A DNA stretch of 64,000 bases, from NCBI RefSeq assembly GCF_003367395.1, contig NZ_CP031417.1, positions 3,844,001 through 3,908,000 of the forward strand, read 5' to 3'. The notes beneath the pieces were generated by a model. The model did not search any database and was not told the origin of the DNA. It saw only the letters and a program-made list of their open reading frames with translations. Each line of letters starts with the position of its first letter. Positions within the stretch are counted from its first letter, which is position 1. Source of the stretch: Pseudolabrys taiwanensis (GTDB lineage: Bacteria; Pseudomonadota; Alphaproteobacteria; Rhizobiales; Xanthobacteraceae). The position numbers and the translations under genes are program-made. Positions 12,701 to 46,560 of this stretch are shown piece after piece.

Positions 12701-12821
12701 GCAACCCCGAGGATTCTATTGCGGGAGCGCTAGCAAGTCTCTCGGCTACCGACGTTCTGGCGCGCTATACCGATGATTGGAGTTTAGACGGGCCATGATT
12801 TGACGACAAGCCGCGCTAGCG

Positions 12822-12923: not shown

Positions 12924-13007
12924 GCGTATTGATGCGGTGTGCCTTAATAAGATCGACTTTGCGAAGGCCGAGTGCAACATTGGCAGTGGTATTAATCGGA
13001 GGTCATC

Positions 13008-13798: not shown

Positions 13799-14275
13799 AT
13801 GTTGAATCCGCTTGCCGGTAATGACGCGACGGACGGCGATTTGCAGGCTGCTTTCAGTCATCGGCGTGTGGCCTCTGTCCGGACACCATGTTCCTTTGAT
13901 GCAGCTATGTTCGACGATTGTGGCGATGTGCGCGCGCGGTACAAGCTCCTTTCCTCCGCTTTGCGGGAGAGCTCTTCGAGTTTGTATCACCTGCGCAACT
14001 TCAAGATCGACAAGATCAAATTGACAGCAGTTTTACCAGCGCCATGGCGTCGGAGCGGAGAGTACCGCGATTGTGAGGGCATTGGTGGGCTTGGCAACGG
14101 GCTCGGGCTCACCATTACCGCAGAAGGCGTCGAGGGCCGCAGCCAATGTGATGAACTGATAAGGCAAGGCTGCCAGCAGGCCCAAGGGTTCTTGTTCAGC
14201 AAGTCTGTGCCGGCTGCAGAAGTGCCCGGATTATATAGCCTTCACGCGCAAGGCGGTCGCAAGGCATCTGCTTGA
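13799..14275 (+). pseudogene. Decayed EAL-domain gene (C-terminal part)
   Basis: From about 13966 the translation resembles the end of an EAL phosphodiesterase: SSSLYHLRNFKIDKIK, then after a shift DSSFTSAM, then AIVRALVGL in that second frame, then back to the first frame with GNGLGLTITAEGVEG and GCQQAQGFLFSK. At least two indels, near 14018 and 14094, break the reading frame. The catalytic EAL motif region is absent. An intact homologue is the C-terminal half of the protein at 25027-27429 (FDKIKIDRSF, TTAEGVETAEQ). It is a relic and should not hydrolyse c-di-GMP. Confidence 0.78.
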
Positions 14276-29988: not shown

Positions 29989-31506
29989 TTACCATTTCTT
30001 CCCGAAAACCGGCGTCAACGATTTGAAGTACGGTTCGAGCGCGCCGCGCTCCGCCGGAGTCAATCGAGCCAAATAGCGTTCGAGCTGCGCCGCCAGCGGT
30101 TTGCTGTTTGCCGAATTGGCGAGCGCCAGTCCGGCGAAGGCGAAGATGGCGCTATCCACGTTCGTCATCACGCCGCCCGGCGTGGCGACTTCGGGACGCC
30201 CCATCGAGCTGACGAGCGTCGCGGTCGTGAGCATCGCCAGCTCCTTACCACGTAGTGCGGCCGCCTGATTCATCGCGACCTGCATGCTGAAGTCGAACTC
30301 GAACGCCGGGTTCGGCGGATACTTCTCACCCAGCATGTTCAAAGCTGCGGCATCGCCGCTCGCGGCCATATCGACCAACCCGGACAGATCTTCTTTGCGG
30401 GGGGCGTTGCCGGCCCGCAAGATCTGGGTCGCCAATTCGTAGGTCGTCAGCGGGAGCTGTCGAACGTCGACCCCGATCCGTTGCAGCGTGTTTTTCGCGG
30501 TCTGATCACCGCGGCGTGCGAGATCGACCATCTCCAGCGAATAATGGGACATCCGGGCGTAAGAAAGAAGAAAACTTTCGCGTGGTGTGTAGGCGCCAAC
30601 TTTCATGCCTCCGGCCGGTGTGGGAGCACGCATGAGCTTCACCTCCGTCGCGCCCTGGCCGTAGAATGCTACGTAATGCCCCGCCTCGGCGATACCGATC
30701 CGTTCGGCGATGGCCATCCAAAGAATCGCCCGGTCGCGCTGACGTTGATAAGCTGGGTTGTTGATCATGTTCGACGCCAGCGCGTAGGCGCAGATGCCGC
30801 AGCCGAAGTAATAGCCGGCTTCGAAACGGCCGAGCGCCGCAGGCATGTCGTCCTTCGACATTGCCAAGTAACCGGACATCAGCAGCATCAGCGCCTTCGT
30901 CGCGTCGGCATTGGGTTGCGCAGCGTCGAAAGCCTTCTTGGTAACCTCGTCGAGCGTGCCGACAGCCCATTGGTCGGCCGGCTCTCGGCGTTTGATCCAG
31001 GGCGGCGCGATATCGGTCGAATTTTGCGCCAGCCCAACCAGGATGCGCTGCGTGTAAAGCGCCCTATCGGCGGCCGGACCGGATTGTTGCGAGGACGACG
31101 GCGGCCGGACCGGAGCGGGGGCCGGGGCAGGCTCGGGCACGGCCGGGGGCGATGCTGGCGGGGCCGGCTGCGGAGCTGGCGCCGGTGGAGTCGGGGCTGG
31201 TTGCGGCGGGGCGGGAGCCGGCCGCGGCTCGGGAGCAGTTTGCTTTGGTGGCTCGGGCGGCACCGCCTTCGGCTGCAACGCATAGACGACTGCACCAAGC
31301 GCGGCAACGCCGACGGCGGCCAGCACGCCGGGGTGCTTGTACCACTGCACAGGCGGTGGTGGCTCCTGCCGTTGACCACCGGTGGCTAAGTCGGACGATG
31401 AGGCAGCACTACTCTTAGCCTCGCGCGACGCGCAGATTGGGCAGGTCTCGTGTGCGCCGGCGTCGAAGGGGTGCCCCTGGACGCAACGAACCATTCGCCG
31501 GGTCAT
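29989..31506 (-). CDS. Zinc-ribbon, single-pass membrane protein with Pro-rich linker and helical repeats (third gene of the ExbB-type operon)
   Basis: 505 residues. The N terminus has CVQGHPFDAG then CPICAS, a probable zinc ribbon. A membrane segment follows at about residues 60-80 (LAAVGVAALGAVVYAL), then a long Pro/Ala linker (about 85-140), then a helical region (about 150-505) with Sel1/TPR-like features. The ribbon side would be cytoplasmic and the repeats periplasmic. Its start overlaps the stop of the coiled-coil gene upstream by 4 bp. I recognise no family for the whole protein. Confidence 0.7.
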   Translation of the reverse strand: MTRRMVRCVQGHPFDAGAHETCPICASREAKSSAASSSDLATGGQRQEPPPPVQWYKHPGVLAAVGVAALGAVVYALQPKAVPPEPPKQTAPEPRPAPAPPQPAPTPPAPAPQPAPPASPPAVPEPAPAPAPVRPPSSSQQSGPAADRALYTQRILVGLAQNSTDIAPPWIKRREPADQWAVGTLDEVTKKAFDAAQPNADATKALMLLMSGYLAMSKDDMPAALGRFEAGYYFGCGICAYALASNMINNPAYQRQRDRAILWMAIAERIGIAEAGHYVAFYGQGATEVKLMRAPTPAGGMKVGAYTPRESFLLSYARMSHYSLEMVDLARRGDQTAKNTLQRIGVDVRQLPLTTYELATQILRAGNAPRKEDLSGLVDMAASGDAAALNMLGEKYPPNPAFEFDFSMQVAMNQAAALRGKELAMLTTATLVSSMGRPEVATPGGVMTNVDSAIFAFAGLALANSANSKPLAAQLERYLARLTPAERGALEPYFKSLTPVFGKKW

Positions 31507-33248
31507 CGGGGCGCGTTTCCTTTCGTGATCTTCATGGCGCTCGCATAGTCGTCGAGCTTGATCGTGCCGGCCATCACGCGGTTGGCGATGAACGAGGCAA
31601 ACTCCGGCGGAAAGCCCTTGCTGCTCATCTGCGCGACCAGATCATCGCGTTTGACGGTCGCGGGTGGAGCAGCGGCGCCAGGCGATGGCGGCTGCATCAC
31701 CAATCCGATCCACTGCGAGGCAACGCCGGCGGTGATGGCGCCGGTCTCGCTCATCGACCTGAGCAGCGCGATCATGCGGCCGGGATTTTCCGCGGGCGCC
31801 GGCGCGTTCCGCGTCGATGCGGGAGTCGGCTGTTTTTCGACGCTCCGGATGCGACGCTCCAATTCGTCGGCGCTCCACCAGCCGCGTGAGGCGCGCGTAA
31901 GAAACTCCTGGGCGAGAAGCGGCGGGACGGCCGCCGCGGTCAGTCGCCGTCGGGAAGCGTCGAGCGTGTCGGCGCTGGGCGTGATACCTGCGGAATTTCC
32001 CGATTTAGGGGGTGTGAGCAGTGCCGCATAGTCGGTCAGTTGCGACTGGTTGATACTCCCGGCCGCGAACCTTCCCGTCAGATCGTCGATCAACCGGTTC
32101 GTGGCTTCCGTATTCGTAGCCTGCTGCTGCGACGGCGCCGCGTTGAGGCGAACGCGGTACATCTGAGAGAGAATCTTCGCGACCTCCTTGCGGTACACGG
32201 CAGAGTCGGGAGCGCAGGTCAGAGAATCGCAGGGAGCATTGTCGATCCGCTGCTGGAACCAGCGCTGCTCGTCCGCGCTCAGTTGCTGTTGAATGAGACC
32301 GTTCTCTGTCGCCTTGATTACAGTGAGAAGACGAAAGGGATTGCTCCTGCCGATTTGGACCGAAGCGGAGATCGTCCCGCTGTTGGTGGCAAGGGCACGG
32401 AATTCGGCAGCGCAATAGCTGCGGTTCAAACTCGGGCCGTCGGAATTGTTCGCCGCGCTCCTGGTTTCGGCATTCAGATACGCGGCGTAGACCGCAAGAA
32501 CCTCTCCGCTGCGCACTCGTCTCGCATTCCATGCACTGCTGAAGGTCAACCCGACGGCCGGGTCGCGATCCGCAAACCTCCGAGCATAATCGTCATAACC
32601 GCGCTCACGCAGAGGGCCGCGCGAGATCGGATCGAATGGTTGAGCCCCGGATTCCGGTACAAGCGAGGCCACGCTCGAGCCGTCAGGGAGTCTGCGCGAG
32701 ACTCTCAGATCGATGATCGCATCGCCGCAGTCGGGATATCGTAGCTCCAGGAACACGGCTGTCGCGTCTTCCCAGGTCTTCAATTGCTCCTGCAGCGCGA
32801 CGATCTTCGCCTGCAGCACCGCAGGATCGAAAGCCCGTAGCCGCGCCACCTCTTCCTTCAAAGCCTGCGCCTCGGACTCGAGACGCGCGCGCTCTGCTTC
32901 GACCCGCTTGAGCTGCGATACCGACTGATCGAGCCGCGTCTGCAGCCGCGCTATATCGCCTTCGGCCTGGGCGAGCTTGGCGAGGCTGACTTCGATCTGG
33001 CGCTGCAACGCATCGAGGTCCTGCTTGGTGAAATCGCCTTTCTTCATGCGGTCCACGACGCCCGCAAGCTCCTGGCGCACACCCCCGATCGACCTGTTGA
33101 CGATGGCGGCGATCTGCTCCGCAGTGAAGTCCGGGATGTAGTACTGCATGGCGAAGACCATCAGGATGAGGAAGGCGCCCATGGCCTTCGTCATCACCGC
33201 CATCAGCGCGACTTCGCTGGTGTCGGACTGGCGCCGCCGCCGCTTCAT
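31503..33248 (-). CDS. MotB-position protein: one membrane helix, coiled coil, no OmpA domain
   Basis: 581 residues from ATG 33248, whose ATGA overlaps the upstream channel gene. A basic N terminus (KRRRRQSDTSE) precedes one membrane helix (KAMGAFLILMVFAMQYYIP, about residues 18-36), as in MotB, TolR and ExbD partners. A coiled coil follows (about 80-150). The rest includes a globular region with several Cys and a Pro-rich linker near residue 480. I see no OmpA-like peptidoglycan-binding domain. The Asp that carries protons in MotB aligns by eye with Val, so any ion route must use another residue, for example the Glu near position 12. Operon order implies it pairs with the MotA/ExbB-like protein. 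Confidence 0.72.
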   Translation of the reverse strand: MKRRRRQSDTSEVALMAVMTKAMGAFLILMVFAMQYYIPDFTAEQIAAIVNRSIGGVRQELAGVVDRMKKGDFTKQDLDALQRQIEVSLAKLAQAEGDIARLQTRLDQSVSQLKRVEAERARLESEAQALKEEVARLRAFDPAVLQAKIVALQEQLKTWEDATAVFLELRYPDCGDAIIDLRVSRRLPDGSSVASLVPESGAQPFDPISRGPLRERGYDDYARRFADRDPAVGLTFSSAWNARRVRSGEVLAVYAAYLNAETRSAANNSDGPSLNRSYCAAEFRALATNSGTISASVQIGRSNPFRLLTVIKATENGLIQQQLSADEQRWFQQRIDNAPCDSLTCAPDSAVYRKEVAKILSQMYRVRLNAAPSQQQATNTEATNRLIDDLTGRFAAGSINQSQLTDYAALLTPPKSGNSAGITPSADTLDASRRRLTAAAVPPLLAQEFLTRASRGWWSADELERRIRSVEKQPTPASTRNAPAPAENPGRMIALLRSMSETGAITAGVASQWIGLVMQPPSPGAAAPPATVKRDDLVAQMSSKGFPPEFASFIANRVMAGTIKLDDYASAMKITKGNAPR

Positions 33249-34114
33249 GACGCGGCGCCCGGCATCTCCTGATCGATGTAGACGCGGTTGATCAGGTTCG
33301 CGAGGCAATATTGGCCCGCGGCGTTGAGTGCCAGTTCCTCCTGCTCCTGGACGCTGTGCTGCGCGAAAGCCAGGATGGCGCTGGCGAGAAGCGCGACCAG
33401 CGTCGTGTAGAACGACACCGACAGCCCGCCGACGACGCGTCCGAGATCCATGTTCTTGGGATCGATCAGATGCAGCGCCAGCGACAAGCCGATGACGGTG
33501 CCGAGGAAGCCGATGGTCGGGATCAGCCACGCCATGTAGCGCAGCATCTGGTAACGCAGATCGACGCGATCACTCATCAGGCTCAGCGCATTGGTCAGCA
33601 GCGTCATCGACTGCTCGACCGATTTGCTGGCCTGTAGCTGCAGGATCGTCATGTCCATCAACGCCGGCAGGAAGCCGCTGTCTGCATCGTGCAGCGGCGC
33701 GACACGGATGCGGATCGGCCCGAGCTCGTGGACTTCGAGCATCGTCGTCGAATCTTCGGGCAGAAATTTCGCGGCGAGGAAGGCGCGCTCTCGCTGTGTC
33801 ATCCGCCAACGCACGAACAGATCAGCGAGCGACCAGGCCAGCAGCAGATAAGTGATGTTCTGAATCGTGAAGGGATACGGGAAGATGCTGTAGGGCTGAC
33901 GGTCTAATAAAAGGGCAGCACCTGCCGAGCCATAAGGCAGAATCAGTGTGAGCAATGTGATCACGGCCGCCGCTGCACACATCGCGATCATCCTGGCGCG
34001 GCTGCGTGACGGAACAGCGGGCCAGATCGGGTTGAACGGATCTGAAAGCGGATCAGACGATGTGGGTAGCCCGACGACCGGGGGATGTGCACCGGCAGCA
34101 TTATCGCTCGTCAA
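33245..34114 (-). CDS. MotA/TolQ/ExbB-family channel protein
   Basis: 289 residues with about four membrane helices: two in the N-terminal half (about 41-70 and 80-101) and two in the C-terminal half. The last two carry the family signatures MAWLIPTIGFLGTVIGLSLA and SVSFYTTLVALLASAILAF (the conserved G-LGT-IG and TT-AL patterns lining the ion path). Such proteins form pentameric stators that couple proton or sodium flow to work on a partner. It is the first gene of a three-gene overlapping operon and lacks the long cytosolic tail of ZorA. No flagellar, Tol or TonB genes are nearby. Confidence 0.85.
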   Translation of the reverse strand: MTSDNAAGAHPPVVGLPTSSDPLSDPFNPIWPAVPSRSRARMIAMCAAAAVITLLTLILPYGSAGAALLLDRQPYSIFPYPFTIQNITYLLLAWSLADLFVRWRMTQRERAFLAAKFLPEDSTTMLEVHELGPIRIRVAPLHDADSGFLPALMDMTILQLQASKSVEQSMTLLTNALSLMSDRVDLRYQMLRYMAWLIPTIGFLGTVIGLSLALHLIDPKNMDLGRVVGGLSVSFYTTLVALLASAILAFAQHSVQEQEELALNAAGQYCLANLINRVYIDQEMPGAAS

Positions 34115-34398
34115 TGCAATATCTCCTGCGGGCGATCCGCGTTGTTACAATCGTCACAAAATACGAACAGACATCGGAAGGGCGAATTCCGAGCGACAGA
34201 GAGTTGCCCCAGCACGGCGGTAATAATTGCAAGTGATACATGTTCTGTAAACTTGAAAATGTACCGATTGCGTGGCGCATCGAACGACGTCCGTAGAACT
34301 GCGCGATACGCCGGCGCGGCCATGACGACAGCCTTCGCGGCGGCAGCTAATGAAACCCGGCAGCGCATTCGTCGAAACAGCTTTCGTGGGGAAATCGG

Positions 34399-34902
34399 AT
34401 GAGCGACCTGATTGCAGCCGATGCACTGAAACTCTACTTCGTGCGGCTCGCGCAGAAGCAAACTGCCATCGGCATCTTCTACGCGACATGGAATAGTCTC
34501 GGCTCGCTTCTGCCGCCGGTAGTCGACGTTTCCGACTGCGAGGCCATCGAACTCGACTGCCTCGGCGGCATCGTATTCTCGGGCGCTCCCGTGCTTCATG
34601 TGCCGTCTGATCGCCATTCGTTCACAGCCCTAGCCTACTCCGAACATTCATGTGTATTGACGGGATTCTTCCCGCAGATTCTAGCCGACGACGGCTCCGG
34701 CGAATGTGCGGACTATGCGGTGTTCGAACCTGTCCGCCGCGCACCGGACTATCGGGCCCTTGCGGCGGCCATGAGCAACGGTGAATTGCTCGAGGATTGG
34801 AGCCAGACTCTCAGCATGTTTGACGCGGGCCAAAGTGCATGGAAGATGGCCGTAAGGGAGGAGTTGGAGCGCCGCGGCGTGCCCTACGCGCCGATCGAAT
34901 AG
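34399..34902 (+). CDS. Hypothetical protein of 167 residues
   Basis: A soluble-looking protein with no signal peptide. Its N-terminal segment DALKLYFVRLAQKQTAIGIF and a middle beta-rich part (SCVLTGFFPQIL) are well formed, and the C terminus is helical (WKMAVREELERRGVPYAPIE). I do not recognise the family. It is divergent from the ExbB-type operon (284 bases) and convergent with the VIT gene (89 bases). A role linked to either neighbour is possible but unsupported. Confidence 0.6.
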   Translation: MSDLIAADALKLYFVRLAQKQTAIGIFYATWNSLGSLLPPVVDVSDCEAIELDCLGGIVFSGAPVLHVPSDRHSFTALAYSEHSCVLTGFFPQILADDGSGECADYAVFEPVRRAPDYRALAAAMSNGELLEDWSQTLSMFDAGQSAWKMAVREELERRGVPYAPIE

Positions 34903-34991
34903 CTTCCAATACTCGATCCACGGACGATGCCGACGCCCGTTCTCCAGCGAACGGCGGCTGGATGTGAACGGCGCGGTGCTGCCAGCTTGAC

Positions 34992-36479
34992 TCAGCATTG
35001 CAGGCCGAACTGGCGCGCGAGCGTCCGCATCACCGGCTTGAGCTGTCCACGATCCTCCGGAAATAGTTCGCTGAGACCGTGGACGGCGACGGGCTCCGTC
35101 GGGCCAGCGGCGATCGCGAGCAGCGCGATCGCGATGTGCTCTGGTGTCAGATGCAAGCCGTAGGCCGCATCACGCACCGGTGTGTGGCGAGCGACCTCGC
35201 GCATCAGCTCTGCTGTCGAATCCGAAAGATGCGCCGGGTCGCCGCTGCGCAGCGCAAGTAGGCCATCGGGGCGCCAAGTAACAGTCTGCGCCGACCGGAT
35301 CAGCGATCGGCCCAAGTCCGAAAGCTCGGGCTCATAAACGGCCGCACGGCCACGATGTGCCAGCCAAGTGCGCCATCGAACGAGTAGTGGAGGAGTTTGA
35401 CGTGCGAAGAGCGGCCACCGCCAGACCGATCGTTCGGATCGCCCCGGTCGTGGCCGACCGGCAATATGATCGTCGTCGGGCGGCAGAACCGGAGCAACGG
35501 ACGTATCGGCAGGGATCTCGGGAGCCGTCGTCGCTGGGATCGGCCGCAACGGTCCACTGGAAGCCAACAGCGCAACCTTGCGCATCACGGGCAAGACACC
35601 GCTGGCTTCGCCATCCGGTCCGACGAAAACCAGGCTGGTCTCTGCCGTCATCAGGTTGGCAGAGAGCGCGAGTGTGCGAATCTCGTCACGATGCGCGGGA
35701 TCGATCGGGGCCTGGCCGAAAGCCGCGATCTTTCGGGTGGCTTCGAGTGCCACTTCAGCCGCTTCATCTTCGGCTGCGATCGATCGCCCAATGTTTGCTG
35801 GGACGGCCACTGCAACCGCAATTGGCCCCGCGCCGACTGCAATCACCGCATCGCGTGCAATTGCGTGCCCATCCACTCGAACATCGATATTCGGCTCAGC
35901 CTCGACGATCAGAGTCACCCTGTGGGAGATGTCTGTCAGGCGCGGTGACAGGTGATCCGGCAGAGCCGGCACGGCGCGGTCAGGGTCGGCGCCCGGACGG
36001 AGTGTCAGGACCGTGATGCCTGCTGGCAGCGCGACAACGCTCTCTGTCCGGACCAAGACATGCTCGCCGGGCAGGATGCCTGCGATCGAGAGCGTGCGCC
36101 AATCACCCTTGAGCTGCTCGAAGAGGATAGCGCGATGGCCGTCGACGGCCGCCGTGTCGTAGCGGTTCTCCGCGCGGCGACGCGCCTGCGCGCGGGCCCG
36201 CCAGATCCGATCGCCAATACCGACCGCAACGCCGTGCACAATCTCCCTGTCGATCGTCGGCGGAAGCGTTAGCACGGCCTCGATCAGAACGGTCTCCGTA
36301 TTGGAGAAACGGCGCTCGACGATCAGCCGCGCGGCAGGTGGCACCAGTCGAAGGCGCATCTCGGTGGCCGAAAGCAACAGAGGCGGCACTGGAATCGGCG
36401 CCGGACGCAGCAAAGGCGCGAGTGGGTCGGTTAGCCCGATGGGCCGGATCGATGGCCCGTCACCGCCGGAGCTGTCCAT
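34992..36479 (-). CDS. VIT-domain protein
   Basis: 495 residues. The N-terminal ~150 residues match the VIT fold of inter-alpha-trypsin-inhibitor proteins: RRFSNTETVLIEAVLTLPPT, VGIGDRIWRARAQARRRAE.RYDTA, and LSIAGILPGEHVLVRTES. Most VIT proteins continue with a von Willebrand A domain, but I find no DxSxS metal site, so the middle is divergent or different. There is no clear signal peptide or membrane anchor. It starts one base after the MerR-like gene stops, so the two are co-expressed. Confidence 0.75.
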   Translation of the reverse strand: MDSSGGDGPSIRPIGLTDPLAPLLRPAPIPVPPLLLSATEMRLRLVPPAARLIVERRFSNTETVLIEAVLTLPPTIDREIVHGVAVGIGDRIWRARAQARRRAENRYDTAAVDGHRAILFEQLKGDWRTLSIAGILPGEHVLVRTESVVALPAGITVLTLRPGADPDRAVPALPDHLSPRLTDISHRVTLIVEAEPNIDVRVDGHAIARDAVIAVGAGPIAVAVAVPANIGRSIAAEDEAAEVALEATRKIAAFGQAPIDPAHRDEIRTLALSANLMTAETSLVFVGPDGEASGVLPVMRKVALLASSGPLRPIPATTAPEIPADTSVAPVLPPDDDHIAGRPRPGRSERSVWRWPLFARQTPPLLVRWRTWLAHRGRAAVYEPELSDLGRSLIRSAQTVTWRPDGLLALRSGDPAHLSDSTAELMREVARHTPVRDAAYGLHLTPEHIAIALLAIAAGPTEPVAVHGLSELFPEDRGQLKPVMRTLARQFGLQC

Positions 36480-37277: not shown

Positions 37278-37703
37278 CCGTTTCCTCCTTCAACCGTCGG
37301 ACCATCGGGGAATGTCCGGCCGCGAAAAAGTGCCGAATGAGGATAGCGACCATCTCAGGATGAGATCGGAGCGGCTAGGCCATTTCGTAGGGCGTCATAA
37401 ACTTCGGCGACAATGTTTGCGGGCGCCGCAAAAATCGGAAATCGGGTTTTGTCTTCCGCGACTGGAGAGCGGGAATACTGCTCGCATACTGCGTCGGCTC
37501 GCTTGTGCCGGGACGCTATGGAGTCGAGCGCCACTTGAATTCGTGACGATGCTGATGGTCGGACGTGCGGGGACTATCGCCAGCTTCGCTTGATCCCGGA
37601 TTAGGATTCGGCGGGCCACTGCACGGCTTCGTGACCCAAGGGTCCGCCCACTTGAACTCGCACAAAGGTACATCTGGAGCTAGATAGCACTTGAAAACAC
37701 TTA
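37278..37703. other. Intergenic stretch without a gene
   Basis: 426 bases between the truncated hydrolase and the 3' end of the glycosyltransferase. Open frames here lack family resemblance, and no strong hairpin with a T run is evident. Confidence 0.4.
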
Positions 37704-39221
37704 TCAAGATGCCGCCGGGTCACGGTCAGGCTCGGGCACCGTCGCATCGACCGCCAGCGCTTGCGCGTCGGATAGTTTCCGGATCGGATAGATGTGGGCG
37801 GTCTTATCCCACACTAAAGACCTTCCCGTGACAGTGTGCTGAATGAACACGTAGCTGGCGCGAAGCATGGCGAAGAAATTGAGAATATTGGACACCAGCA
37901 TGCGCGGCCCGGCCATCGCGCCCTGACCGAAGCCGTATATTCTCGTCGTGAAATACATGCGCTGGAAAATGCGATTGATTAGGAACGCAATATTGATTGA
38001 AAGAAGAACGCCGTAGGTGGGCGTGCCGAGAAGCCAATATGGCGCCCGCTCCGCGGGCGGCACAAACGAAAACAAGAATTCCACGGCAATAAGGCCGAAC
38101 ATCACGATATAGGCGAGAACGGCAGTCGGCGAGGTCAAGAGCCCCTTGCGGTCCCGCAGGAAGAAGTACTTGGCGCCAACGGTCGCACCCCAACCGTGCT
38201 CCGACCAGCCTTGGAAGGCTATACCAAGCAGCCAGCGCGCGCGCTGGCGATACGCGGCACGGAAATCGGACGGAAAGAACTCCCGCGTGGCGATTGGAAG
38301 CTCGCGCTCGACGCGGATGGGCTGCGAGATTTCGTTCGAGGTCTCGATCGTGAAACGCACAGGAAACCGCACGAAGATTTCGCGCATGCCTAGCTTCTTC
38401 AGTCTAAAGGCGATGTCGTAATCTTCCGTCAGACTGGAGGTTGAGAATACCTCGCCCTCCCGGTCGGCCCGAAGCATCGATATCGCGCGGCGGCTGAAGC
38501 ACGTCGAAACCCCTGCCGACGGTACAGTCCCCGTAATGCTCTCGCGTACGACGAGGTCCTTCGAATGCCACTCGGCGAACTCGTCCATATAGGTGCCGGC
38601 CACAAGCTCCGTAAGGCTGCGCTGGAACGAATAGACCGGTAGCTGAATCAGATCCATTCGATCGAGGAGATAATTGAACAGCCGAAGTTCGTATGGATGG
38701 ATGACGTCTTCGGCGTCATGCATGGCGATCCCGCCGAAATGGGTCCCGGTCCTTTCCTCGTAAGATAAAATGTCTCCCAATATGACATTAAGACAATCCG
38801 CCTTGCTGGTGGGACCGTCACGGGGAACGATCGACATCGATACGCCGGAGAATCGCTTGACCGCGTCTTCCACCTCTTGGATCGTGCGCGGATCGTTCTG
38901 GTACACGCCAACGAATATGCGATAGCTGTCATACTGGATCAGCGTCTTGCTGGTCTCCAGCATCGCGGCGATGACGTCGCTCTCCTGCCATGCCGGCACC
39001 ATGATGGCGATCGGCACCTCAGGCTTTGCCCTCAAGGCCTCTGCCGACAGAGAGGCATAGCGCGCCCGTATCCAAAACCACCGATAGAACTCTCGCAACC
39101 AATAATAGCAATCGACGAAGGCATCATCGAGGCTGGACAGCAGAATTACCACCGTCACGATGACCGTCAGCACCTCAAGCGCGTGCTGAAACGTAACGAT
39201 GAGATATAGGTAGAGAGACAT
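37704..39221 (-). CDS. NfrB-like membrane glycosyltransferase (GT2) without C-terminal sensor domain
   Basis: 505 residues. Helices near the N terminus (about 10-35) precede a cytosolic GT2 domain with IAIMVPAWQESDVIAAML, HDAEDVIHPYELRLF (metal-binding D-D region), SLTEDYDIAFRL (catalytic TED) and QRARWLLGIAFQGW, then several more membrane helices. LVWDKTAHIYP near the end resembles the stretch that in E. coli NfrB precedes a C-terminal MshEN c-di-GMP domain; here the protein stops about 35 residues later, so that domain is absent. It begins 6 bases after the BcsB-like gene. The WecB neighbour suggests UDP-ManNAc as substrate (inference). Confidence 0.83.
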   Translation of the reverse strand: MSLYLYLIVTFQHALEVLTVIVTVVILLSSLDDAFVDCYYWLREFYRWFWIRARYASLSAEALRAKPEVPIAIMVPAWQESDVIAAMLETSKTLIQYDSYRIFVGVYQNDPRTIQEVEDAVKRFSGVSMSIVPRDGPTSKADCLNVILGDILSYEERTGTHFGGIAMHDAEDVIHPYELRLFNYLLDRMDLIQLPVYSFQRSLTELVAGTYMDEFAEWHSKDLVVRESITGTVPSAGVSTCFSRRAISMLRADREGEVFSTSSLTEDYDIAFRLKKLGMREIFVRFPVRFTIETSNEISQPIRVERELPIATREFFPSDFRAAYRQRARWLLGIAFQGWSEHGWGATVGAKYFFLRDRKGLLTSPTAVLAYIVMFGLIAVEFLFSFVPPAERAPYWLLGTPTYGVLLSINIAFLINRIFQRMYFTTRIYGFGQGAMAGPRMLVSNILNFFAMLRASYVFIQHTVTGRSLVWDKTAHIYPIRKLSDAQALAVDATVPEPDRDPAAS

Positions 39222-39227
39222 GCGAGA

Positions 39228-41096
39228 TCATCTGCTCGCGCGACCGCGGAAGTACAGCACGAGTACCTTTCTGGCCACGAACACAATCACGACCAGGACG
39301 GCGAGGACAATCAACACGGTCAGTCCGTAGCGCTCCGCCAAAGACTGCAGACCCGACGCCGAATTTTGCAGTGTCCCGAACAAGGGGCTGGAGACCGATG
39401 GCGCATCGCTCCAGACTACACCGCTCGTGGACACCAATGCATTGGCGCCGCCGCCGCGAAGATAGAGAGCCGGTGGCGTCGGAATCTGATCCGGCTCGGA
39501 GAGAACAACACGCAGCTGTTTGCCGTTAGGGTCGGAAAACAAGCCGGCGAGCGCCGACGACGCGACAGGAGGCAGATTTAAGCTCTCAGCACGGGACGGG
39601 ATCGGAATCTTCAATCCTTCCGAGCCGGCCACCTCGAAGATTATCGCTGTTTTGGTCAGGCTCGCCAGGTCGCTCGGCGATAAGCCGAAACGGACGTCAA
39701 TGTCTTCCGCCGTCGATCCGAAGACAGCAAGCAACCGCGCAGCAAACGCAAGATAGCGGCCGGCAACGTCCGGATCGCGTGCAGCGTCGGGTAGGACGAC
39801 GGTGCCTCCCTTCGCCAAGCCGCGGGCGACCGCCGAGAAGCCGCTTCCCGAATCGTCATCGAATGTCACACCGGAGCCCGGCATGATCTGCACGGCATTG
39901 CCTCCGCCAGGACGCACGCAATAGCCGCGCTCCGTGGCGCGATCGACGACGAGGCGCAAGCTGTTGCTGAAGTTCAGCGCCTGGCTCGGCAGGGGGAAGC
40001 TGATCTCATTGTCGCCCGGCCGCAAGCGTGCTGCGGTGACCAGTTGGCCGTTCAGATACACGGTCAAGATCGGGGCTTCGCTACTCCAATCCGGCGCCAC
40101 TGCGACGCGAAGCTTCACGCTTCTCGCCAACCGGCCGCTTTCCGCCAGAAGCGGAAAGTTCAGAGTCCATTCGCCAGTTTGGCCGATATTCTGTGCCGGC
40201 GGCAGGGATGAAAACTCCCGAAAGTTGTCGCCAACCGGTTTCACGCCGTTCGGACTGCGTGACGCGATGGCCGCATTGCCGATAATCGTGCCCGGCGCCA
40301 TCTGCCAGAGTTTCGTCAAGGCGACGACGTCCCTCGATGGATCGATGACGATGTCGAGCTTGTCGTTATCCCGCACGAGCACTGCGGCGTTCTCATCGAT
40401 CGGCGCCCGTTTGTCGCGCTCCAGCCGGATGGCCGCCGGACTGTTGTCGCGTGTGCTTTGAATACGCGGATTGATCCCGTCCGCGATCATCAAGACGGCT
40501 AGATGAAGCGCCGCTTGTGCGGCCCTGGGATTCAGTGGAGTACTTTTGGGCAGGACAATCTCGGCATTGTGCGGCAAAAGCCTCACGGCGTCGACGAGAG
40601 ACTGAATCTGATCGGGATTGATGTTGAAGCTAATGCCAGTCGTTGGCAGGATTGAAATAATGTTGGCGATGTCGGAATCGTTGGCGCAAGGATCGCCGTT
40701 AGCGAGTAGTTCAGCTTCGAACCGAATGTTGAGCGCACCATTAGCCGCGATCAGCTTGCGGTCGATCGCGATATCGCGATCGAGTGGCTGCAGGCCGTCG
40801 GCCTGCTTGATCGCGATCGAGTCAACGGGCTGGCCGTTGGCCGTAACGAGCAGGCTTCCGCGAAAAAGATTCGGTGCGGAAATCTGACCGTGGAGTTTAA
40901 GCCTGAGCTGCGACAAGGACTCGGGGCCTGGCAACGAAAAGAAAACGGTCGTCGACGCACGCGAGCGCAATTGGATCCCGGTGGAGAAACCGCGATCCTG
41001 CAGGTCGACGCTGATTGCGCGCGGCTCGGCAGCCAGTGTCGACGCGCAAAGAGACACCAGCAAAGCGACGACCGTGACGAAGAAGCGGATAGACAC
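39228..41096 (-). CDS. BcsB-like periplasmic/inner-membrane polysaccharide protein
   Basis: 622 residues from a GTG start preceded by AGAGAGG. A signal peptide (cleavage after STLAA, about residue 23) leads into a large periplasmic beta-rich region resembling BcsB, the partner of cellulose synthase (motifs such as SRASTTVFFSLPGPESL, ERGYCVRPGGGNAV, FAARLLAVFGS), and one C-terminal membrane helix (about 592-614). In cellulose export BcsB guides the polymer through the periplasm and anchors the synthase. Here it lies between wecB and the NfrB-like glycosyltransferase with gaps of 15 and 6 bases, so it probably serves that synthase. Confidence 0.8.
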   Translation of the reverse strand: MSIRFFVTVVALLVSLCASTLAAEPRAISVDLQDRGFSTGIQLRSRASTTVFFSLPGPESLSQLRLKLHGQISAPNLFRGSLLVTANGQPVDSIAIKQADGLQPLDRDIAIDRKLIAANGALNIRFEAELLANGDPCANDSDIANIISILPTTGISFNINPDQIQSLVDAVRLLPHNAEIVLPKSTPLNPRAAQAALHLAVLMIADGINPRIQSTRDNSPAAIRLERDKRAPIDENAAVLVRDNDKLDIVIDPSRDVVALTKLWQMAPGTIIGNAAIASRSPNGVKPVGDNFREFSSLPPAQNIGQTGEWTLNFPLLAESGRLARSVKLRVAVAPDWSSEAPILTVYLNGQLVTAARLRPGDNEISFPLPSQALNFSNSLRLVVDRATERGYCVRPGGGNAVQIMPGSGVTFDDDSGSGFSAVARGLAKGGTVVLPDAARDPDVAGRYLAFAARLLAVFGSTAEDIDVRFGLSPSDLASLTKTAIIFEVAGSEGLKIPIPSRAESLNLPPVASSALAGLFSDPNGKQLRVVLSEPDQIPTPPALYLRGGGANALVSTSGVVWSDAPSVSSPLFGTLQNSASGLQSLAERYGLTVLIVLAVLVVIVFVARKVLVLYFRGRASR

Positions 41097-41111
41097 GGAA
41101 TGCCTCTCTTT

Positions 41112-42335
41112 TCAATCGATAGAATTCTCATCCGACGATACAGTCGTCGGGTCGACGGGTCCCGCCCCGAGTACTTGACCGCTAATGGTCGATGAAGGAT
41201 CGCGAATGTGGATACGTTCCGCGATGGCGGCGACAATGCGATCTGCCGCATGCCCATCGCCATAGGGAAAGCGCGGCTGTGCCATCGCCTGATACGCTTG
41301 GCTGTTGTCGTGCAGTTCCGCGATTGAGTGATGTAAGCGATCGGGGAGCGTCCCAACCAAACGCGCCGCTCCACAATCGACTGCTTCCGGCCGCTCTGTC
41401 ACGTCCCGCAGTACGAGAACGGGTTTACCCAGCGCCGGAGCCTCTTCTTGCAGACCGCCGCTGTCGGTCACTACAAGCCAACTCGCCTTCAGCGCGGCGA
41501 CGAGCGTTGGATAATTTTGCGCAGGCACCAGCCGAATTCGCTCGTGGCCCGACATCACCCGCTCGGCGAGCCGCTGCGTATCGGGATTGGGATGGACTGG
41601 GAAGTAAAGCCCGACATCAGGGTAGCGCTCGACCACGGCCCGCAGAGCGCCGAGCATGCGCTCAAGCGGCGCGCCGGCATTCTCGCGACGGTGCGCCGTC
41701 AAGAGGATGGGCTTTGGCACGTCGGGAAAGTCGGCGGGCAGCGGCAGGGTGCGGCCGGCCATATACAAAAGCGCGTCGATCACCGTATTGCCAGTGACGA
41801 TGCAGTCTTGCTCACGCACGCCCTCGGCTCGCAGATTGGCCGCAGCCTGGGCCGTCGGCGCGCAATGAAGCGTCGCCGCAAGTGCGACGACGCGGCGATT
41901 GAATTCTTCCGGAAAAGGAGCGCGCAGAACTCCCGTCCGCAGACCTGCCTCGACATGGATGAACTCCAGCCGACGGTGGAATGCGACCATGGCGCTCGCC
42001 ATCACCGTTGTAGTGTCGCCCTGGGCGATGACGCAGGTCGGCGACAAGCGATCGGCGAGCACGTCGAAGCGCTCCATGATCTTCGCCGCGATCTCGATGA
42101 TCGAATTACGTTGTCGCTCGACCGCGATGCGATGATCAATCTGAAGCTCGAAATCGGCGATTGCCTGATCGAGCAATTCGAGGTGCTGGCCGATGGCGAC
42201 GACCCGGACGTCAGCCCAGCGCACTTCCCGCAAGCGCCGAATGATCGGTGCCATCTTGATGACTTCGGGCCGCGTTCCGATGATGCAGACGAACAGCGGA
42301 GACTGCTTGGTTGCTGCCCGGGACGCCATCATCAT
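41112..42335 (-). CDS. wecB: UDP-N-acetylglucosamine 2-epimerase
   Basis: About 407 residues. It has the full non-hydrolysing epimerase pattern: CIIGTRPEVIKMAPIIRRL, VIAQGDTTTVMASAMVAF, HVEAGLRTG.....PEEFNR, LLTAHRRENAG, FPVHPNPDTQ and SDSGGLQEEAPALGKPVLVL. It interconverts UDP-GlcNAc and UDP-ManNAc in the cytosol. The open frame reaches back to GTG 42368, but ATG 42335 is preceded by ACGGAG and begins just after the stop of the small membrane gene, so I prefer it. It should supply UDP-ManNAc for the glycosyltransferase of the same operon. Confidence 0.92.
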   Translation of the reverse strand: MMMASRAATKQSPLFVCIIGTRPEVIKMAPIIRRLREVRWADVRVVAIGQHLELLDQAIADFELQIDHRIAVERQRNSIIEIAAKIMERFDVLADRLSPTCVIAQGDTTTVMASAMVAFHRRLEFIHVEAGLRTGVLRAPFPEEFNRRVVALAATLHCAPTAQAAANLRAEGVREQDCIVTGNTVIDALLYMAGRTLPLPADFPDVPKPILLTAHRRENAGAPLERMLGALRAVVERYPDVGLYFPVHPNPDTQRLAERVMSGHERIRLVPAQNYPTLVAALKASWLVVTDSGGLQEEAPALGKPVLVLRDVTERPEAVDCGAARLVGTLPDRLHHSIAELHDNSQAYQAMAQPRFPYGDGHAADRIVAAIAERIHIRDPSSTISGQVLGAGPVDPTTVSSDENSID

Positions 42336-42345
42336 GAACGCTCCG

Positions 42346-42504
42346 TTATCGGCCAACAATGTGCGCACTAATTAGAAAGAACGCGGCAATCCCGGCAAGC
42401 ATGCCAAGCAGAGCGCCTGCCATTCCGGCAAGATAGGCCCCCACAAAACCCAGCATAATGAACAAGGCTGCCCCGGCGACGATCATAAGAAGCGGCCTAA
42501 ACAC
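42346..42504 (-). CDS. Small membrane protein leading the polysaccharide operon
   Basis: About 52 residues from GTG 42504 (or 46 from ATG 42486) to TAA 42346. Almost the whole product is hydrophobic, with two short helices: MIVAGAALFIMLGFVGAYLA and GMLAGIAAFFLISAHIV, with several Gly residues. The stop lies 10 bases before the wecB start. Its place as first gene of the operon suggests it belongs to the synthase complex, but no family is recognised. Confidence 0.5.
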   Translation of the reverse strand: MFRPLLMIVAGAALFIMLGFVGAYLAGMAGALLGMLAGIAAFFLISAHIVGR

Positions 42505-42591
42505 ATCATACTCATTCAGTTGGCTGGAAACGCCTCAAGCGGCCCGGCATCGAAAACCTGCCGCCGGTACGCTTAACAAGTTCAAAAGCAA

Positions 42592-42975
42592 ATGCCTTCA
42601 AATGGCCGACTAGGGCTAACGGGATACTGGCAACCGCCCACTATCATTACCGTTCAGGTGCGCAGGGGATGGCCAATGGATGCCGGCTCGGAAATGGGAC
42701 GTGAACGTCCCGTCGTTACCGGTTTGTACCAACATGACGGAACCGAGAGAACGTACGGAACTCCGTCATGTCAGGCTTCTTGGCCTCATCGAACCCCGTC
42801 GAAAGTTGGCCGCGATGCCCTCGCAATTGTGTTTGCTTGGATCGCGTTCGCGTCGATTCTATGGCAACCGACGACGCAACTCATCCTGATCGGTGGCGCA
42901 TTTTGTCTTGCGGCGCCCCTTGGCGGGCGTCTGACGGCAGCAGCCAACAAGCGCTCTTACCGCTGTCTTGGCTAA
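42592..42975 (+). CDS. Possible small membrane protein in the divergent region
   Basis: A 127-residue open frame whose last third is hydrophobic (ALAIVFAWIAFASILW, LILIGGAFCLAAPLGG); the first two thirds are low in resemblance to any protein. It lies in the 580-base gap between the divergent polysaccharide operon and the NfrA-like gene, on the latter's strand. If real, translation may start at an internal ATG such as 42676. Weak call; the rest of the gap must hold the divergent promoters. Confidence 0.33.
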   Translation: MPSNGRLGLTGYWQPPTIITVQVRRGWPMDAGSEMGRERPVVTGLYQHDGTERTYGTPSCQASWPHRTPSKVGRDALAIVFAWIAFASILWQPTTQLILIGGAFCLAAPLGGRLTAAANKRSYRCLG

Positions 42976-43084
42976 CGTATTACACGTTGCTGGGGTTACC
43001 CTAAAACGTTAGATTTCGTTCACGATTCTCGTAAGGAGCGTACCGCTCTTTTGTGATTGCCGTCCGTGGTGTGTTTGCGTCCCG

Positions 43085-45169
43085 TTGGTTCATGCAGGGT
43101 TGCAAGCATTGTCGGTTCAGCCGTCATCCAGCCGTGGCAGTCGTGGCTCCGTAAGTCTGCGGAGAAGTGGTTACGGCCTCAGAACCATTGTTGCCGCAGC
43201 GGCTGTGGTAACATTGTGTTGGGCAACGTCTGCCCCTGCATCCGCGCAAAACGCCCCCCTTGTCGGCAATGCCTGGTCGCTCGCCGACGAAGCCTATCGC
43301 GCCTTTGACTCGCGCGACTATGCGCGCGCCATCGATACAGCGCGGCAAGCGATTGAGCTACGGCCGGACTTGCCGCAATTGCGGCGGCTGCTCATCAACT
43401 CACTCGCTGCGGCCGGCGACCTCACCGGCGCGCTGGAACAAGCAGATAAGGCAGTAGCCGACAAGGCGTCGGATGCGGAACTCGAAACTCTGCGACAGTC
43501 GCTCAAAACGCAGATTGCAGCCGGTCAGCAGTCGGGACGTACACAGGCAGCGTATAAAGCGGCAGAAGAAGGATATCGTGCTTATGCACGGCGCAATTAT
43601 CGCGCGGCGCTCGCAGCCGCCAAGAGCGCGATAGCGCAGGATCCGTCCCGGCCTAATTACTACGCTTTGCGGATCGACGCGCTGCAGGGGCTCGGACGCC
43701 TTGAAGAAGCGGAGCGCGAAGCGACCGCCGCTCTCGCCCGCTTTCCGCACGAGGCAAGCCTCCAGTTGCAGCGCGGCTATTTGAGGCAACGGCTGCATCG
43801 GCCCGGCGCCGCCGGTGCCGACTTCAAGGCTGTCGTCGATGCACGATCACTGACGGCTGAGCAGAGGCGCAATGCCCGGCTCTCGCTGGTCGACGTCCTC
43901 CTTGCAGAGAAGCGGCCACGAGAGGCCCTGACCGCCCTCGCGCCGCTGTCGCCCGCCCGAGGGTACGACTTTGCTATCCGACAGGGTTATGCCTACCAGG
44001 CGTTGGGGCGTCAGGAAGACGCGCTGCGCGCCTTCGACGTTGCGCGCCGACACGCGACACGCGGCCCACAACGCGCAGCGGCGATCCGGGGCGGCGTTGG
44101 CGCGCTGGTGGCGCTCGGTCGCAAGGAAGAGGCCAGTACCCGCTTCAAGCAGGCATACGAGGCCGGAGAACTCGCCGACACAAGCAGCGTCGATCTCGCT
44201 TACCTAGCGCAACAAGTCGACGATCGACCTCTGGCCTTCCTGCTATTCCAGCAAGCCGACACGAAAGGACAACTGCGTGGAAGGGCTTTGCTCGACGCCG
44301 GCTACCTCGCGCGCAGCCAGTTCGACAACGCGGCGGCCATCAACTATTTCCGGCGCGCGATCGACGCCAACGACAGGGGCGAGATTAATCTCGACCGACA
44401 ACGTCTGTTCGAGGTGCGCCGGGACGTCGCCACGGTCAGTCGGACATGGGGTGCTACGGCCGCGCTGATCTTCGGCTCGATCGGCGTCGTGCCAGGCCTA
44501 CCTGTCTCGTTCCCTTCGGTAGGGCGAACGTTGCAGCTTGGGGAAGAATTTTACTGGCGGCCGCCCGGTATCGGATTCCGCGACGGCGCGACCTTCGAGC
44601 TTTTTGGCCGCGCGTTCACCACGCTCTATGACGCGACCGGCGGTCCAACAGGAAGCAACACGACCCAAGGTGCTTTCGGCGCCCGCTGGAAGCCGATCAC
44701 AGACATCAACTTGGTTCTCGAAGTCGGCCGCATGTTGAAGATCGGCGAGTACGCACGCAACGACTGGCAGTTCCGGGTGGCCTACTCGGCCAATGAAGGC
44801 GGTGACCTGCGCTGGGACGTAAACCATTGGCGCTATTGGCAAGTCTATTCTGAAATAAACGGCTTTGCGCAGGCGCATCAGATCCTGGCCAGCGCGGAGG
44901 CTCGCTACGGGCACTCCTTTCGGCTGGATGCAATCAGTCCCAACGTTGTGTTATCGCCGTTCGTCGCCGTCGGCGCGGCATACGACACGACGCTCGCCAC
45001 CCGCCAAGCCGTTGGCGCGGGGCCAGGCCTCAATCTGAGGGCTTGGTTTAGAGAGGACCACTACACCGCTCCGATGTCCTATCTGGATCTCAACGTACAG
45101 TATCGCCTTCGCATCAACGGCGACCGGCGCGCGGAAGGCTGGTTCTCGTCGCTTTCGCTTGTGTACTGA
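43085..45169 (+). CDS. NfrA-like TPR and outer-membrane protein
   Basis: 694 residues from a TTG start; the true start may be slightly inside. A signal peptide ends near ATSAPASAQ. About 400 residues of tetratricopeptide repeats follow (AYRAFDSRDYARAIDTARQA, YRAYARRNYRAALAAAKSAI, LGRLEEAEREATAALARFP, LGRQEDALRAFDVARRHA). The C-terminal ~200 residues are beta-rich and resemble the C-terminal domain of the phage N4 adsorption protein NfrA (GAFGARWKPITDINLVLEVG ... SYLDLNVQYRLRI). TPR plus barrel suits an outer-membrane exporter for the polymer made by the divergent operon. Confidence 0.72.
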   Translation: MVHAGLQALSVQPSSSRGSRGSVSLRRSGYGLRTIVAAAAVVTLCWATSAPASAQNAPLVGNAWSLADEAYRAFDSRDYARAIDTARQAIELRPDLPQLRRLLINSLAAAGDLTGALEQADKAVADKASDAELETLRQSLKTQIAAGQQSGRTQAAYKAAEEGYRAYARRNYRAALAAAKSAIAQDPSRPNYYALRIDALQGLGRLEEAEREATAALARFPHEASLQLQRGYLRQRLHRPGAAGADFKAVVDARSLTAEQRRNARLSLVDVLLAEKRPREALTALAPLSPARGYDFAIRQGYAYQALGRQEDALRAFDVARRHATRGPQRAAAIRGGVGALVALGRKEEASTRFKQAYEAGELADTSSVDLAYLAQQVDDRPLAFLLFQQADTKGQLRGRALLDAGYLARSQFDNAAAINYFRRAIDANDRGEINLDRQRLFEVRRDVATVSRTWGATAALIFGSIGVVPGLPVSFPSVGRTLQLGEEFYWRPPGIGFRDGATFELFGRAFTTLYDATGGPTGSNTTQGAFGARWKPITDINLVLEVGRMLKIGEYARNDWQFRVAYSANEGGDLRWDVNHWRYWQVYSEINGFAQAHQILASAEARYGHSFRLDAISPNVVLSPFVAVGAAYDTTLATRQAVGAGPGLNLRAWFREDHYTAPMSYLDLNVQYRLRINGDRRAEGWFSSLSLVY

Positions 45170-45190
45170 CCGGCTCACCTAAGGGGTGGC

Positions 45191-45383
45191 GATTGAAAAG
45201 TACCGCGTCCGCGCGCCGCCATTACGCGGATGTGCAGTCCGCAGGATTTGGCGTGTGATGGGCGCGGAATCGGGTTGGATTTTGGTCCACGCTGGTGGTA
45301 CACAGGACTTAGCCGAGCGCGCCGCAACTAATTGATTTCATTAAGCTATGAGTGCAGCAGGGACAATCCTCTCCTGGGCACCA
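45191..45383 (+). repeat. Direct repeat copy A (~190 bp), left flank of a possible island
   Basis: By eye about two thirds of the bases match 59632-59824 over the full length, including the exact strings CCATTACG, GGACTTAGCC, TAATTGATTT and CCTCTCCTGGGCA. Both copies are in the same orientation, 14.4 kb apart. Copy A ends just before an integrase fragment. It may be an attachment-site flank or one copy of a dispersed element. Confidence 0.65.
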
Positions 45384-45419
45384 AAGAGCTCCTAGCTCAT
45401 TGAAATCAATAATTTTTTT
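45331..45419 (+). terminator. Long inverted repeat with a T7 tract
   Basis: ATTGATTTCATTAAGCT (45331) and AGCTCATTGAAATCAAT (45394) can pair at 15 of 17 positions around a 46-base loop, and seven T follow at 45413. This could be a terminator for the NfrA-like gene 160 bases upstream or part of a mobile-element end. The right arm is missing in repeat copy B. Confidence 0.5.
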
Positions 45420-45435
45420 GACCGTTCAGTAGGTT

Positions 45436-45735
45436 GTGGCCGCCCGCGTGACGCACCAGGGTGGTTCATATGCCTCTGCCGATGACGCGACCTCGGAATC
45501 ACCCGAGACCGGGATCTATCGGCTCCGCAAACGCGTGCCGGCGCATCTCCAAGAGGTCGTCGGCAAGGTCGCAGAGAAGCTAAGCCTTAAGACCCGGGAG
45601 CATGGCGAGGCCAAGAAGAGGCTCGCCGTCGCATTGGCGGCCGTGGAGCAACGCTGGGATAACCTTGCCGCCAGCCCGCGACGGCTGACGGAAAGGGAGG
45701 CTCAAAATCTCGCTCGTCAATTTACGGTCCATTCC
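45436..45735 (+). pseudogene. N-terminal fragment of a tyrosine integrase (DUF6538-like arm)
   Basis: About 100 residues resemble the N-terminal arm of phage/island integrases: GIYRLRKRVPAHLQEVVGKV, KLSLKTREHGEAKKRLAVA and RRLTEREAQNLARQFT. The core-binding and catalytic domains with the R-H-R-Y residues are absent; after about 45735 the frame runs antisense into the end of the next gene. It is the remains of an integrase at the edge of a possible island, next to repeat copy A. Confidence 0.72.
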
Positions 45736-45795
45736 GCCCGACACGACAGCTGCCGTCACGCCGGACGGATGGACTTCGTCGCGAACACGATCGTC

Positions 45796-46560
45796 TTACT
45801 GAGCGGGCGGCGGCGGGACGTGCGTGAGCCACCAGTCGAGCGTGGTCGAGCTGAGGCGTGGGTGGGCGCCGCCTGGAACGAGCGCTGCCTCGCCGACCTT
45901 GATGCCGAAATAAGGCGCCTGCGGATCGACGATCACCTTACGCGTGTCATGATCGTATTCGAGGACCTTCCCGACCGCCTGGTCCAAGGTGAATGTGCCG
46001 GGGCCCGCGATCTCGATCGTGTCATTTGCCGGCACAGCAAGGGCGGCCGCCGCGACCGCTGAAGCGACATCCTCCGCCGCTATCGGCTGGAACAATACGG
46101 GCGGCAAACGCACGACACCATCCGTGGTCGAGAACTGTGCGATCGCGCGGATGAACTCGAAGAACTGCGTGGCATGGACGATCGTGTACGGCGTAGGTGA
46201 GCTCTTGATGAGCTGCTCCTGGGCGAGCTTGGCGCGGAAATAGCCGCTGTCCTGCAGCCGCTCGGTGCCGACCACCGAAAGAGCGACGTGATGCTGGACG
46301 CCAGCCGCCACTTCAGCCGCGGTGATGTTCTTGCCGGCGGTCTGGAAGAAGTCCATTGCCGCCTTGTCCTCGAAGGACGGTGAGTTGGCGACATCGACGA
46401 CAACCTTGGCACCGGCGAGAGCTTTGGCCAGGCCTTCGCCCGTAATCGTGTTGACGCCAGTGCTGGGCGCGGCGGCAATCGCCTCGTGCCCCTTCTGTTT
46501 CAGCTTCTCGACAACTTTGGACCCAATGAGACCGGTTCCGCCAATAACAACTATCTTCAT
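45796..46560 (-). CDS. NmrA/SDR-type NAD(P)-binding protein
   Basis: 254 residues. An N-terminal Rossmann motif KIVVIGGTGLIGSKVVEKL is followed by VVVDVANSPSFED, HHVALSVVGTERL and YFRAKLAQEQLIKSSPTPYT, typical of atypical SDRs annotated as NmrA or nucleoside-diphosphate-sugar epimerase. ATG 46560 follows GGAAGAGG; the extension to 46713 is rejected for that reason. Substrate unknown. It is the first gene inside the left repeat, convergent with the integrase remnant. Confidence 0.85.
   Translation of the reverse strand: MKIVVIGGTGLIGSKVVEKLKQKGHEAIAAAPSTGVNTITGEGLAKALAGAKVVVDVANSPSFEDKAAMDFFQTAGKNITAAEVAAGVQHHVALSVVGTERLQDSGYFRAKLAQEQLIKSSPTPYTIVHATQFFEFIRAIAQFSTTDGVVRLPPVLFQPIAAEDVASAVAAAALAVPANDTIEIAGPGTFTLDQAVGKVLEYDHDTRKVIVDPQAPYFGIKVGEAALVPGGAHPRLSSTTLDWWLTHVPPPPAQ

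Follow-up and report, generated by a model that had tools for sequence, protein, structure and literature searches.

What kind of machine is encoded by a polysaccharide synthase operon that carries a BcsB-like subunit and lacks the MshEN domain through which its best-known relative binds cyclic di-GMP (c-di-GMP), and how might such a machine be controlled? The question is raised by five genes at positions 37704-45169 of the stretch of DNA analysed here (64,000 nucleotides, hereafter the window), which belongs to the single 5.59 Mb contig that makes up the genome of Pseudolabrys taiwanensis. Four of them run leftward as a tight operon, in the order 52-residue membrane protein, wecB, BcsB-like protein and NfrB-type family 2 glycosyltransferase (GT2), with gaps of 10, 15 and 6 bases that are exact if WecB starts at the ATG at 42335. 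The fifth, which diverges from them, encodes an NfrA-like protein with tetratricopeptide repeats (TPRs) and a beta-barrel. Open reading frame (ORF) calls find every frame open and confirm this layout, which had been described in an earlier note made from the letters of the sequence.

That note read the locus as a separate secretion machine for a polymer of the N-acetylmannosamine (ManNAc) type, assembled from parts of two systems and subject to another mode of control. We consider it probable, at roughly 0.78, that the locus is an Nfr-type synthase-dependent exopolysaccharide operon, a type known as NGR in E. coli and as PGR in Acinetobacter, for which we propose a ManNAc-type product, and that its synthase is not switched by c-di-GMP of its own binding. 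Judged by its sequence, the locus is a complete gene set for making and exporting a surface polymer of a known kind, the Nfr-type phage-receptor polysaccharide, although the polymer itself and its control are inferred. The overall gene set is known; what is new is the variant, in which a synthase from an MshEN-less NfrB clade is accompanied by a shorter BcsB and a 52-residue protein.

Gene products and their likely roles

The synthase gene (37704-39221, minus strand) encodes a processive enzyme of 505 residues that matches PF13641 (4.9e-33) and PF13632 (1e-32) in Pfam, which bears out its earlier assignment to GT2. Its score is 656 bits on NF012033/PRK15489 (cut-off 537); on the model for Escherichia coli NfrB it reaches 544 bits, short of the cut-off of 1170, and it is therefore filed as an Nfr-type variant rather than as NfrB in the strict sense. 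Identity to E. coli NfrB is 44% across 478 residues, and the catalytic motifs HDAED (168), TEDYD (265) and QRARW (326, the QxxRW motif) have identical residue numbers in the two proteins; D169, D267 and W330 are the positions that were mutated in E. coli NfrB (PMC8669469; this and the other papers are cited from portions of their text). The best BLAST alignment with E. coli BcsA has an E value of only 0.053. Hydropathy places transmembrane (TM) segments at residues 13-31, 368-386 and 397-415. The chain ends at residue 505, 31 residues past the WDKT motif, and the c-di-GMP residues of E. coli NfrB lie from 490 onward (PMC8669472).

The absence of MshEN, which the earlier note had already remarked upon, extends beyond the enzyme itself. 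The domain has no match in the synthase or elsewhere in the P. taiwanensis genome, on which ground we reject a separate MshEN protein that would act in trans, and PilZ likewise has no match in the synthase. Among 1,841 NfrB homologs, 1,705 were reported to contain MshEN (PMC8669469); the domain is thus typical and not universal, and the existence of MshEN-less NfrB proteins was already implied.

The wecB (nfrC) gene (41112-42335, minus strand, with an alternative GTG start at 42368) encodes a non-hydrolysing UDP-N-acetylglucosamine (UDP-GlcNAc) 2-epimerase. It matches Epimerase_2 (PF02350, 3.9e-93) and scores 369 bits on the wecB model TIGR00236 (cut-off 210), remaining under the cut-off of the NeuC model. 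It is also the sole Epimerase_2 match in the genome, and the window thereby fits the reported rule that wecB adjoins nfrB where no other pathway in the genome supplies one (PMC8669469).

The BcsB-like protein (39228-41096, minus strand, 622 residues) scores 53.2 bits on PF03170, where the cut-off is 21, and its homologs in Pseudolabrys sp. Root1462 (locus L038) and in a Phyllobacteriaceae metagenome-assembled genome (MAG; locus L037) score 40.3 and 18.8, respectively, the latter under the cut-off. The duplicated carbohydrate-binding and flavodoxin-like domains and the C-terminal TM anchor are present. When the predicted structure was compared by re-aligning chains ranked by Foldseek, which is not an independent search, BcsB entries filled all nine top rows, and the alignments covered as many as 476 residues. 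A BcsB fold for this protein is thus supported by the model as well as by the profile, and the earlier BcsB-like assignment stands.

Its description as cellulose-type finds no support in the sequence. By sequence the protein matches nfr-type BcsB (hhalign E 3.7e-38), from which it differs by being shorter by about 86 residues in one region, the first alpha/beta (flavodoxin-like) region, and it has no match to E. coli BcsB; the BcsB proteins of the MshEN-bearing class likewise have none by the same test. Searches found no second BcsB match in the P. taiwanensis genome, on which ground we reject a subunit borrowed from a resident cellulose operon. A first scan of genome contigs with the BcsB alignment gave no match.

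The exporter gene (43085-45169, plus strand, 694 residues) begins at a TTG, and the N terminus, judged by eye, resembles a signal peptide; the true start may sit slightly downstream. Residues 519-688 score 189 bits on NfrA_C (PF13283, cut-off 25) and TPRs, including TPR_19, are also recognised, so that the earlier NfrA-like assignment holds as well. The names NfrA and BcsB derive from Pfam only, those of the GT and WecB from both Pfam and NCBIfam. Sequence searches of the PDB with the GT, with NfrA and with a BcsB profile returned nothing relevant, NfrA giving TPR proteins only. In a quick NfrA tree the window protein is sister to NfrA of the Pseudolabrys strain (L038; SH-aLRT 99). The same tree contains one very long branch (3.61), that of NfrA at 11496-13907 of locus L040, from an MshEN-less Pseudolabrys MAG. 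A gene with a DUF4434 domain follows nfrA in Pseudomonas sp. LP_7_YM (L063, 14121-14996); none was recognised beside nfrA of the window.

From the families to which these proteins belong, a division of labour can be proposed. WecB would convert UDP-GlcNAc to UDP-ManNAc, which the NfrB-type GT2 would polymerise at the inner membrane while handing the chain to the periplasm. There the BcsB-like subunit, anchored beside the synthase, would receive and guide it, and NfrA would carry it across the outer membrane. As to control, we favour the view that c-di-GMP does not switch the synthase by binding to it. Output may instead depend on how strongly the operon is expressed and on assembly of the enzyme with its short BcsB and the 52-residue membrane protein.

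BcsB in related nfr loci

Whether the combination of genes is unusual was addressed with a synthase alignment, which was used to scan the representative contigs of GTDB. The best 80 of 563 confirmed matches to the GT of the window were kept, which makes them something other than a random sample, and those of the 80 loci that are cut by contig ends were retained in the counts. BcsB lies beside the synthase, on the same strand and with gene ends no more than 3 kb apart, in 74 of the 80, WecB and NfrA_C occur in 69 each, and GT, BcsB, WecB and NfrA_C are found together in 60. An MshEN-type tail is present in 73, and 72 hold both that tail and BcsB. Carriers include Pseudomonas, Burkholderia, Paraburkholderia, Caballeronia and Achromobacter. 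The MshEN model behind these counts, built from the C-terminal parts of three database proteins (P0104, P0109 and P0127) of which only P0104 is listed with Pfam MshEN, is broader than that of Pfam, and with a stricter motif pattern 14 of the 73 tails went undetected. The Achromobacter synthase L101, for example, has no Pfam MshEN at E 0.01, yet the RLG..L and LG..L pattern can be seen in its tail.

Loci farther off within the class present a different picture. Eleven of them (L026-L036) were fetched by NfrA_C, three GT matches without NfrA_C being left out, and among the nine that hold a GT, BcsB was found in one and an MshEN-type tail in eight. BcsB is therefore not universal in nfr loci but is an ordinary part of the nearest ones, although the nfr operon of E. 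coli, the case studied best, lacks it. Of the machine postulated in the earlier note, the self-contained set of synthase and exporter with its dedicated WecB survives these comparisons; the mixing of two systems, with BcsB standing in for MshEN, does not, given the 74 loci with BcsB, the 72 with both and a genome that holds no other BcsB. The note had also left room for the set being one already described under a name, and this is largely the case. In Achromobacter xylosoxidans, nfrA, nfrB, wecB and a BcsB homolog are clustered (PMC8669472), and the Acinetobacter PGR locus encodes NfrB-like, BcsB-like and WecB-like proteins together with the porin PgrG, with pgrD (BcsB) and pgrF (WecB) mutants resisting phage StAb3 (PMC12507263), both as described in the available parts of these papers. 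For the MshEN-less, BcsB-bearing variant with a 52-residue protein, a limited literature search found no published description.

The locus can be set against the known systems one by one. With the nfr clusters (wecB-bcsB-nfrB-nfrA) of Achromobacter, Pseudomonas, Burkholderia and others it shares four genes and the adjacency of BcsB to nfrB. Their NfrB, however, has an MshEN-type tail, their BcsB is longer (median about 745 residues over 72 uncurated ORFs), and the 52-residue protein was not found among their short ORFs. The E. coli N4 glycan receptor (NGR), made by NfrB, NfrA and YbcH with WecB, shares the motif positions of the synthase, the NfrA_C exporter and the dependence on WecB. It differs in that E. 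coli NfrB carries a c-di-GMP-binding MshEN region and that the nfr operon, as far as the cited text describes it, is without BcsB and draws its WecB from the enterobacterial common antigen cluster. The Acinetobacter PGR, the receptor of phage StAb3, resembles the window in its NfrB-like synthase and its BcsB and WecB homologs. By its description, on which this comparison is based, it has in addition a PgaB-like protein and a motif-less GGDEF-like protein, and its porin PgrG is not called NfrA (PMC12507263). Cellulose synthase (BcsA-BcsB-BcsC) has in common with the window the BcsB fold and a general arrangement in which a synthase is joined by a periplasmic subunit and an exporter of the TPR-barrel type, whereas the synthase of the window is not BcsA-like and is without PilZ. 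As to PgaCD and poly-N-acetylglucosamine, neither PgaB nor PgaD was recognised among the genes of the operon, for which no dedicated search was made.

The MshEN-less clade and its small membrane protein

In a tree of 50 GT sequences all synthases without MshEN group as a single clade (bootstrap 100, SH-aLRT 99), so placed that a single change accounts for them. This tree was drawn from a quick tree of 79 rows, itself taken from 209 sequences, by dropping ten rows, thinning 20 more and adding E. coli NfrB. The dropped rows were L028 (a near-duplicate of L027), the long or distant L036, L029, L030, L031 and L088, and four MshEN-less database rows; database proteins were classed in the trees by tail length (at least 90 residues) and not by profile. 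A tree of 29 WecB sequences recovers the same MshEN-less grouping (100/100) and within it places the window, L037 and L038 together (99/92), which on these sequences indicates that synthase and WecB share their history within the clade.

The clade is not uniform in gene content. BcsB is present in the window, L037 and L038, and in these three loci the genes for the small protein, WecB, BcsB and NfrB stand in identical order, a recurrence which shows that the locus is not a product of chance. In the remaining members, the Bradyrhizobium-like L064, L069, L097 and L111 and the Pseudolabrys MAG L040, which belong to the same synthase and WecB clade, neither BcsB nor the 52-residue protein was seen within the stretches covered. 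Five of ten other BcsB matches are possibly paired with an MshEN-less GT (P0002/P0013, P0004/P0015, P0006/P0018, P0007/P0021 and P0010/P0054), which is a hint from a coincidence test, namely equal length of the longest contig in each pair. L097 is a record under the title Frankia sp. RB7, but by synthase and WecB it falls with Bradyrhizobium and is probably mislabelled or contaminated.

The first gene of the operon (42346-42504, minus strand) encodes a glycine-rich membrane protein of 52 residues. A gene of 52 codons directly precedes wecB in all three of the BcsB-bearing clade loci whose neighbourhood is known, and in L037 its stop codon and the start of wecB seem to overlap. A profile of the three sequences was run against 96 loci, with 15,122 short ORFs between them; those three alone (the window being L121 in this set) fell below E 1, the next-best having E values of 3.6 and 3.7. 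A protein database search returned six matches of 46-52 residues among 49 candidates; two are the proteins of L037 and L038, which leaves four further relatives. Eleven columns of the family are invariant, mostly glycine or alanine, and so is the pattern LG..GA...G..GA..G...G. The L037 and L038 genes agree with it in size and position, which together with the four additional relatives rules out a chance ORF, and as far as seen the protein is real and specific to the clade. No Pfam or NCBIfam family matches it above cut-off. One source labels one relative (P0135) as YeaQ/YmgE-like; Pfam showed no match of that kind.

Small partners are known for other synthases, PgaD and BcsF among them. By analogy, we propose the 52-residue protein as a candidate accessory or gating/control subunit, small and testable. 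A bolder version of this idea is that the clade dropped control of the enzyme by c-di-GMP and that, in its BcsB-bearing branch, this glycine-zipper protein took over the function of the MshEN switch; it would gate the synthase by docking on it or on the shortened BcsB. We think it unlikely, but if true, gating by a small protein would represent a new class of control of polysaccharide secretion. Independently of that outcome, the clade offers a natural MshEN-free synthase, and comparison with an MshEN-bearing sister could reveal the roles both of MshEN and of the missing BcsB segment.

Alternatives and surroundings of the locus

Several observations weigh against our reading of the locus. Polymer, sugar and control are all unproven for this clade. 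The genome contains 28 GGDEF matches, 27 of them over the cut-off, and five PilZ matches, two of which lie in side-by-side frames of equal length; the nearest GGDEF, in an MHYT-PAS-GGDEF-EAL protein (25027-27429, plus strand), lies at a distance of some 10 kb from the gene for the synthase. Such signalling capacity means that the missing MshEN is no proof of independence from c-di-GMP. In the window nfrA stands outside the operon, and none was seen in the L037 stretch; moreover, NfrA of the window and of L038 is nearer by path to NfrA of the MshEN-bearing class than to that of L040, which suggests that the exporter may have a history of its own and have been swapped independently of the synthase. 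Finally, the 79-row quick tree puts L036, a distant synthase without MshEN, apart from the clade, so that two changes are needed.

The GGDEF and PilZ matches favour one alternative, that the operon is still controlled by c-di-GMP, either through an unrecognised site on the synthase or through a PilZ protein in trans. BgsA of Sinorhizobium, according to the part of the published account available, binds c-di-GMP without a recognisable domain, and this precedent leaves independence a best guess, unproven; E. coli NfrB, moreover, is activated by c-di-GMP (PMC8669472, PMC8669469). The 31 residues that follow WDKT, however, leave no room for a BgsA-like C-terminal domain, MshEN has no match in the genome, and neither GGDEF nor PilZ has one inside the operon. 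Continued control by c-di-GMP is possible on this evidence, though we lean against it; the other mode of control suggested in the earlier note likewise counts as possible.

A second alternative retains the same machine and changes its product: WecB might feed a mixed chain, or the synthase might use UDP-GlcNAc. In the cited portions of the literature, neither the product of E. coli nor that of Acinetobacter has been characterised chemically (PMC8669472, PMC8669469, PMC12507263), which gives the suggestion some purchase. Against it, the sole wecB of the genome is dedicated to this operon, and both the E. coli and the Acinetobacter receptors need wecB (PMC8669472, PMC12507263). We regard a polymer other than ManNAc as doubtful.

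The distribution of the genes raises the further question of whether the locus was recently acquired and is non-functional or decaying. Searches for NfrA_C gave no match in any of the 23 further genomes from the genus, a few of which are only about 80% complete, or in the 16 genomes of one sample from the order, and matches in 12 of 289 genomes of the class. For the GT, 297 genomes from the order yielded five carriers at E 1e-60 and 289 from the class yielded 13 at E 1e-50, P. taiwanensis included in both counts. This patchiness suggests horizontal spread, and an ORF with a DUF6538 domain stands beside nfrA. A locus of that kind is nonetheless very unlikely, since the frames are open, the catalytic motifs intact and the tight spacing kept, since GC content and composition show no break across the locus, and since the gene order is shared with two other genomes. 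As for a separate hybrid machine that recruited a cellulose-type BcsB in place of MshEN, the absence of the one, the presence of the other and the rarity of BcsB in the more distant loci are outweighed by the loci that combine BcsB with an MshEN-type tail, by the sequence affinity of this BcsB and by its being the only one in the genome, and the idea is barely credible.

Of the Nfr-type operon's surroundings, the divergent intergenic region (42505-43084) is the presumed site of both promoters. A promoter scan over 37300-45500 gave three matches where 2.3 were expected, which is chance level; the intergenic region contains one perfect 10-nucleotide inverted repeat at 42732-42771. Rfam and tRNA scans of the window gave no match. 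At 31503-36479 on the minus strand lie genes for an ExbB/MotA-like membrane protein, a weakly matching coiled-coil protein and a VIT-domain protein, with no visible link to polysaccharides. Directly past nfrA is the DUF6538 ORF (45436-46062, plus strand, 47 bits). Domains of this family occur at the start of tyrosine recombinases, and the ORF may be a remnant of a recombinase or mobile element.

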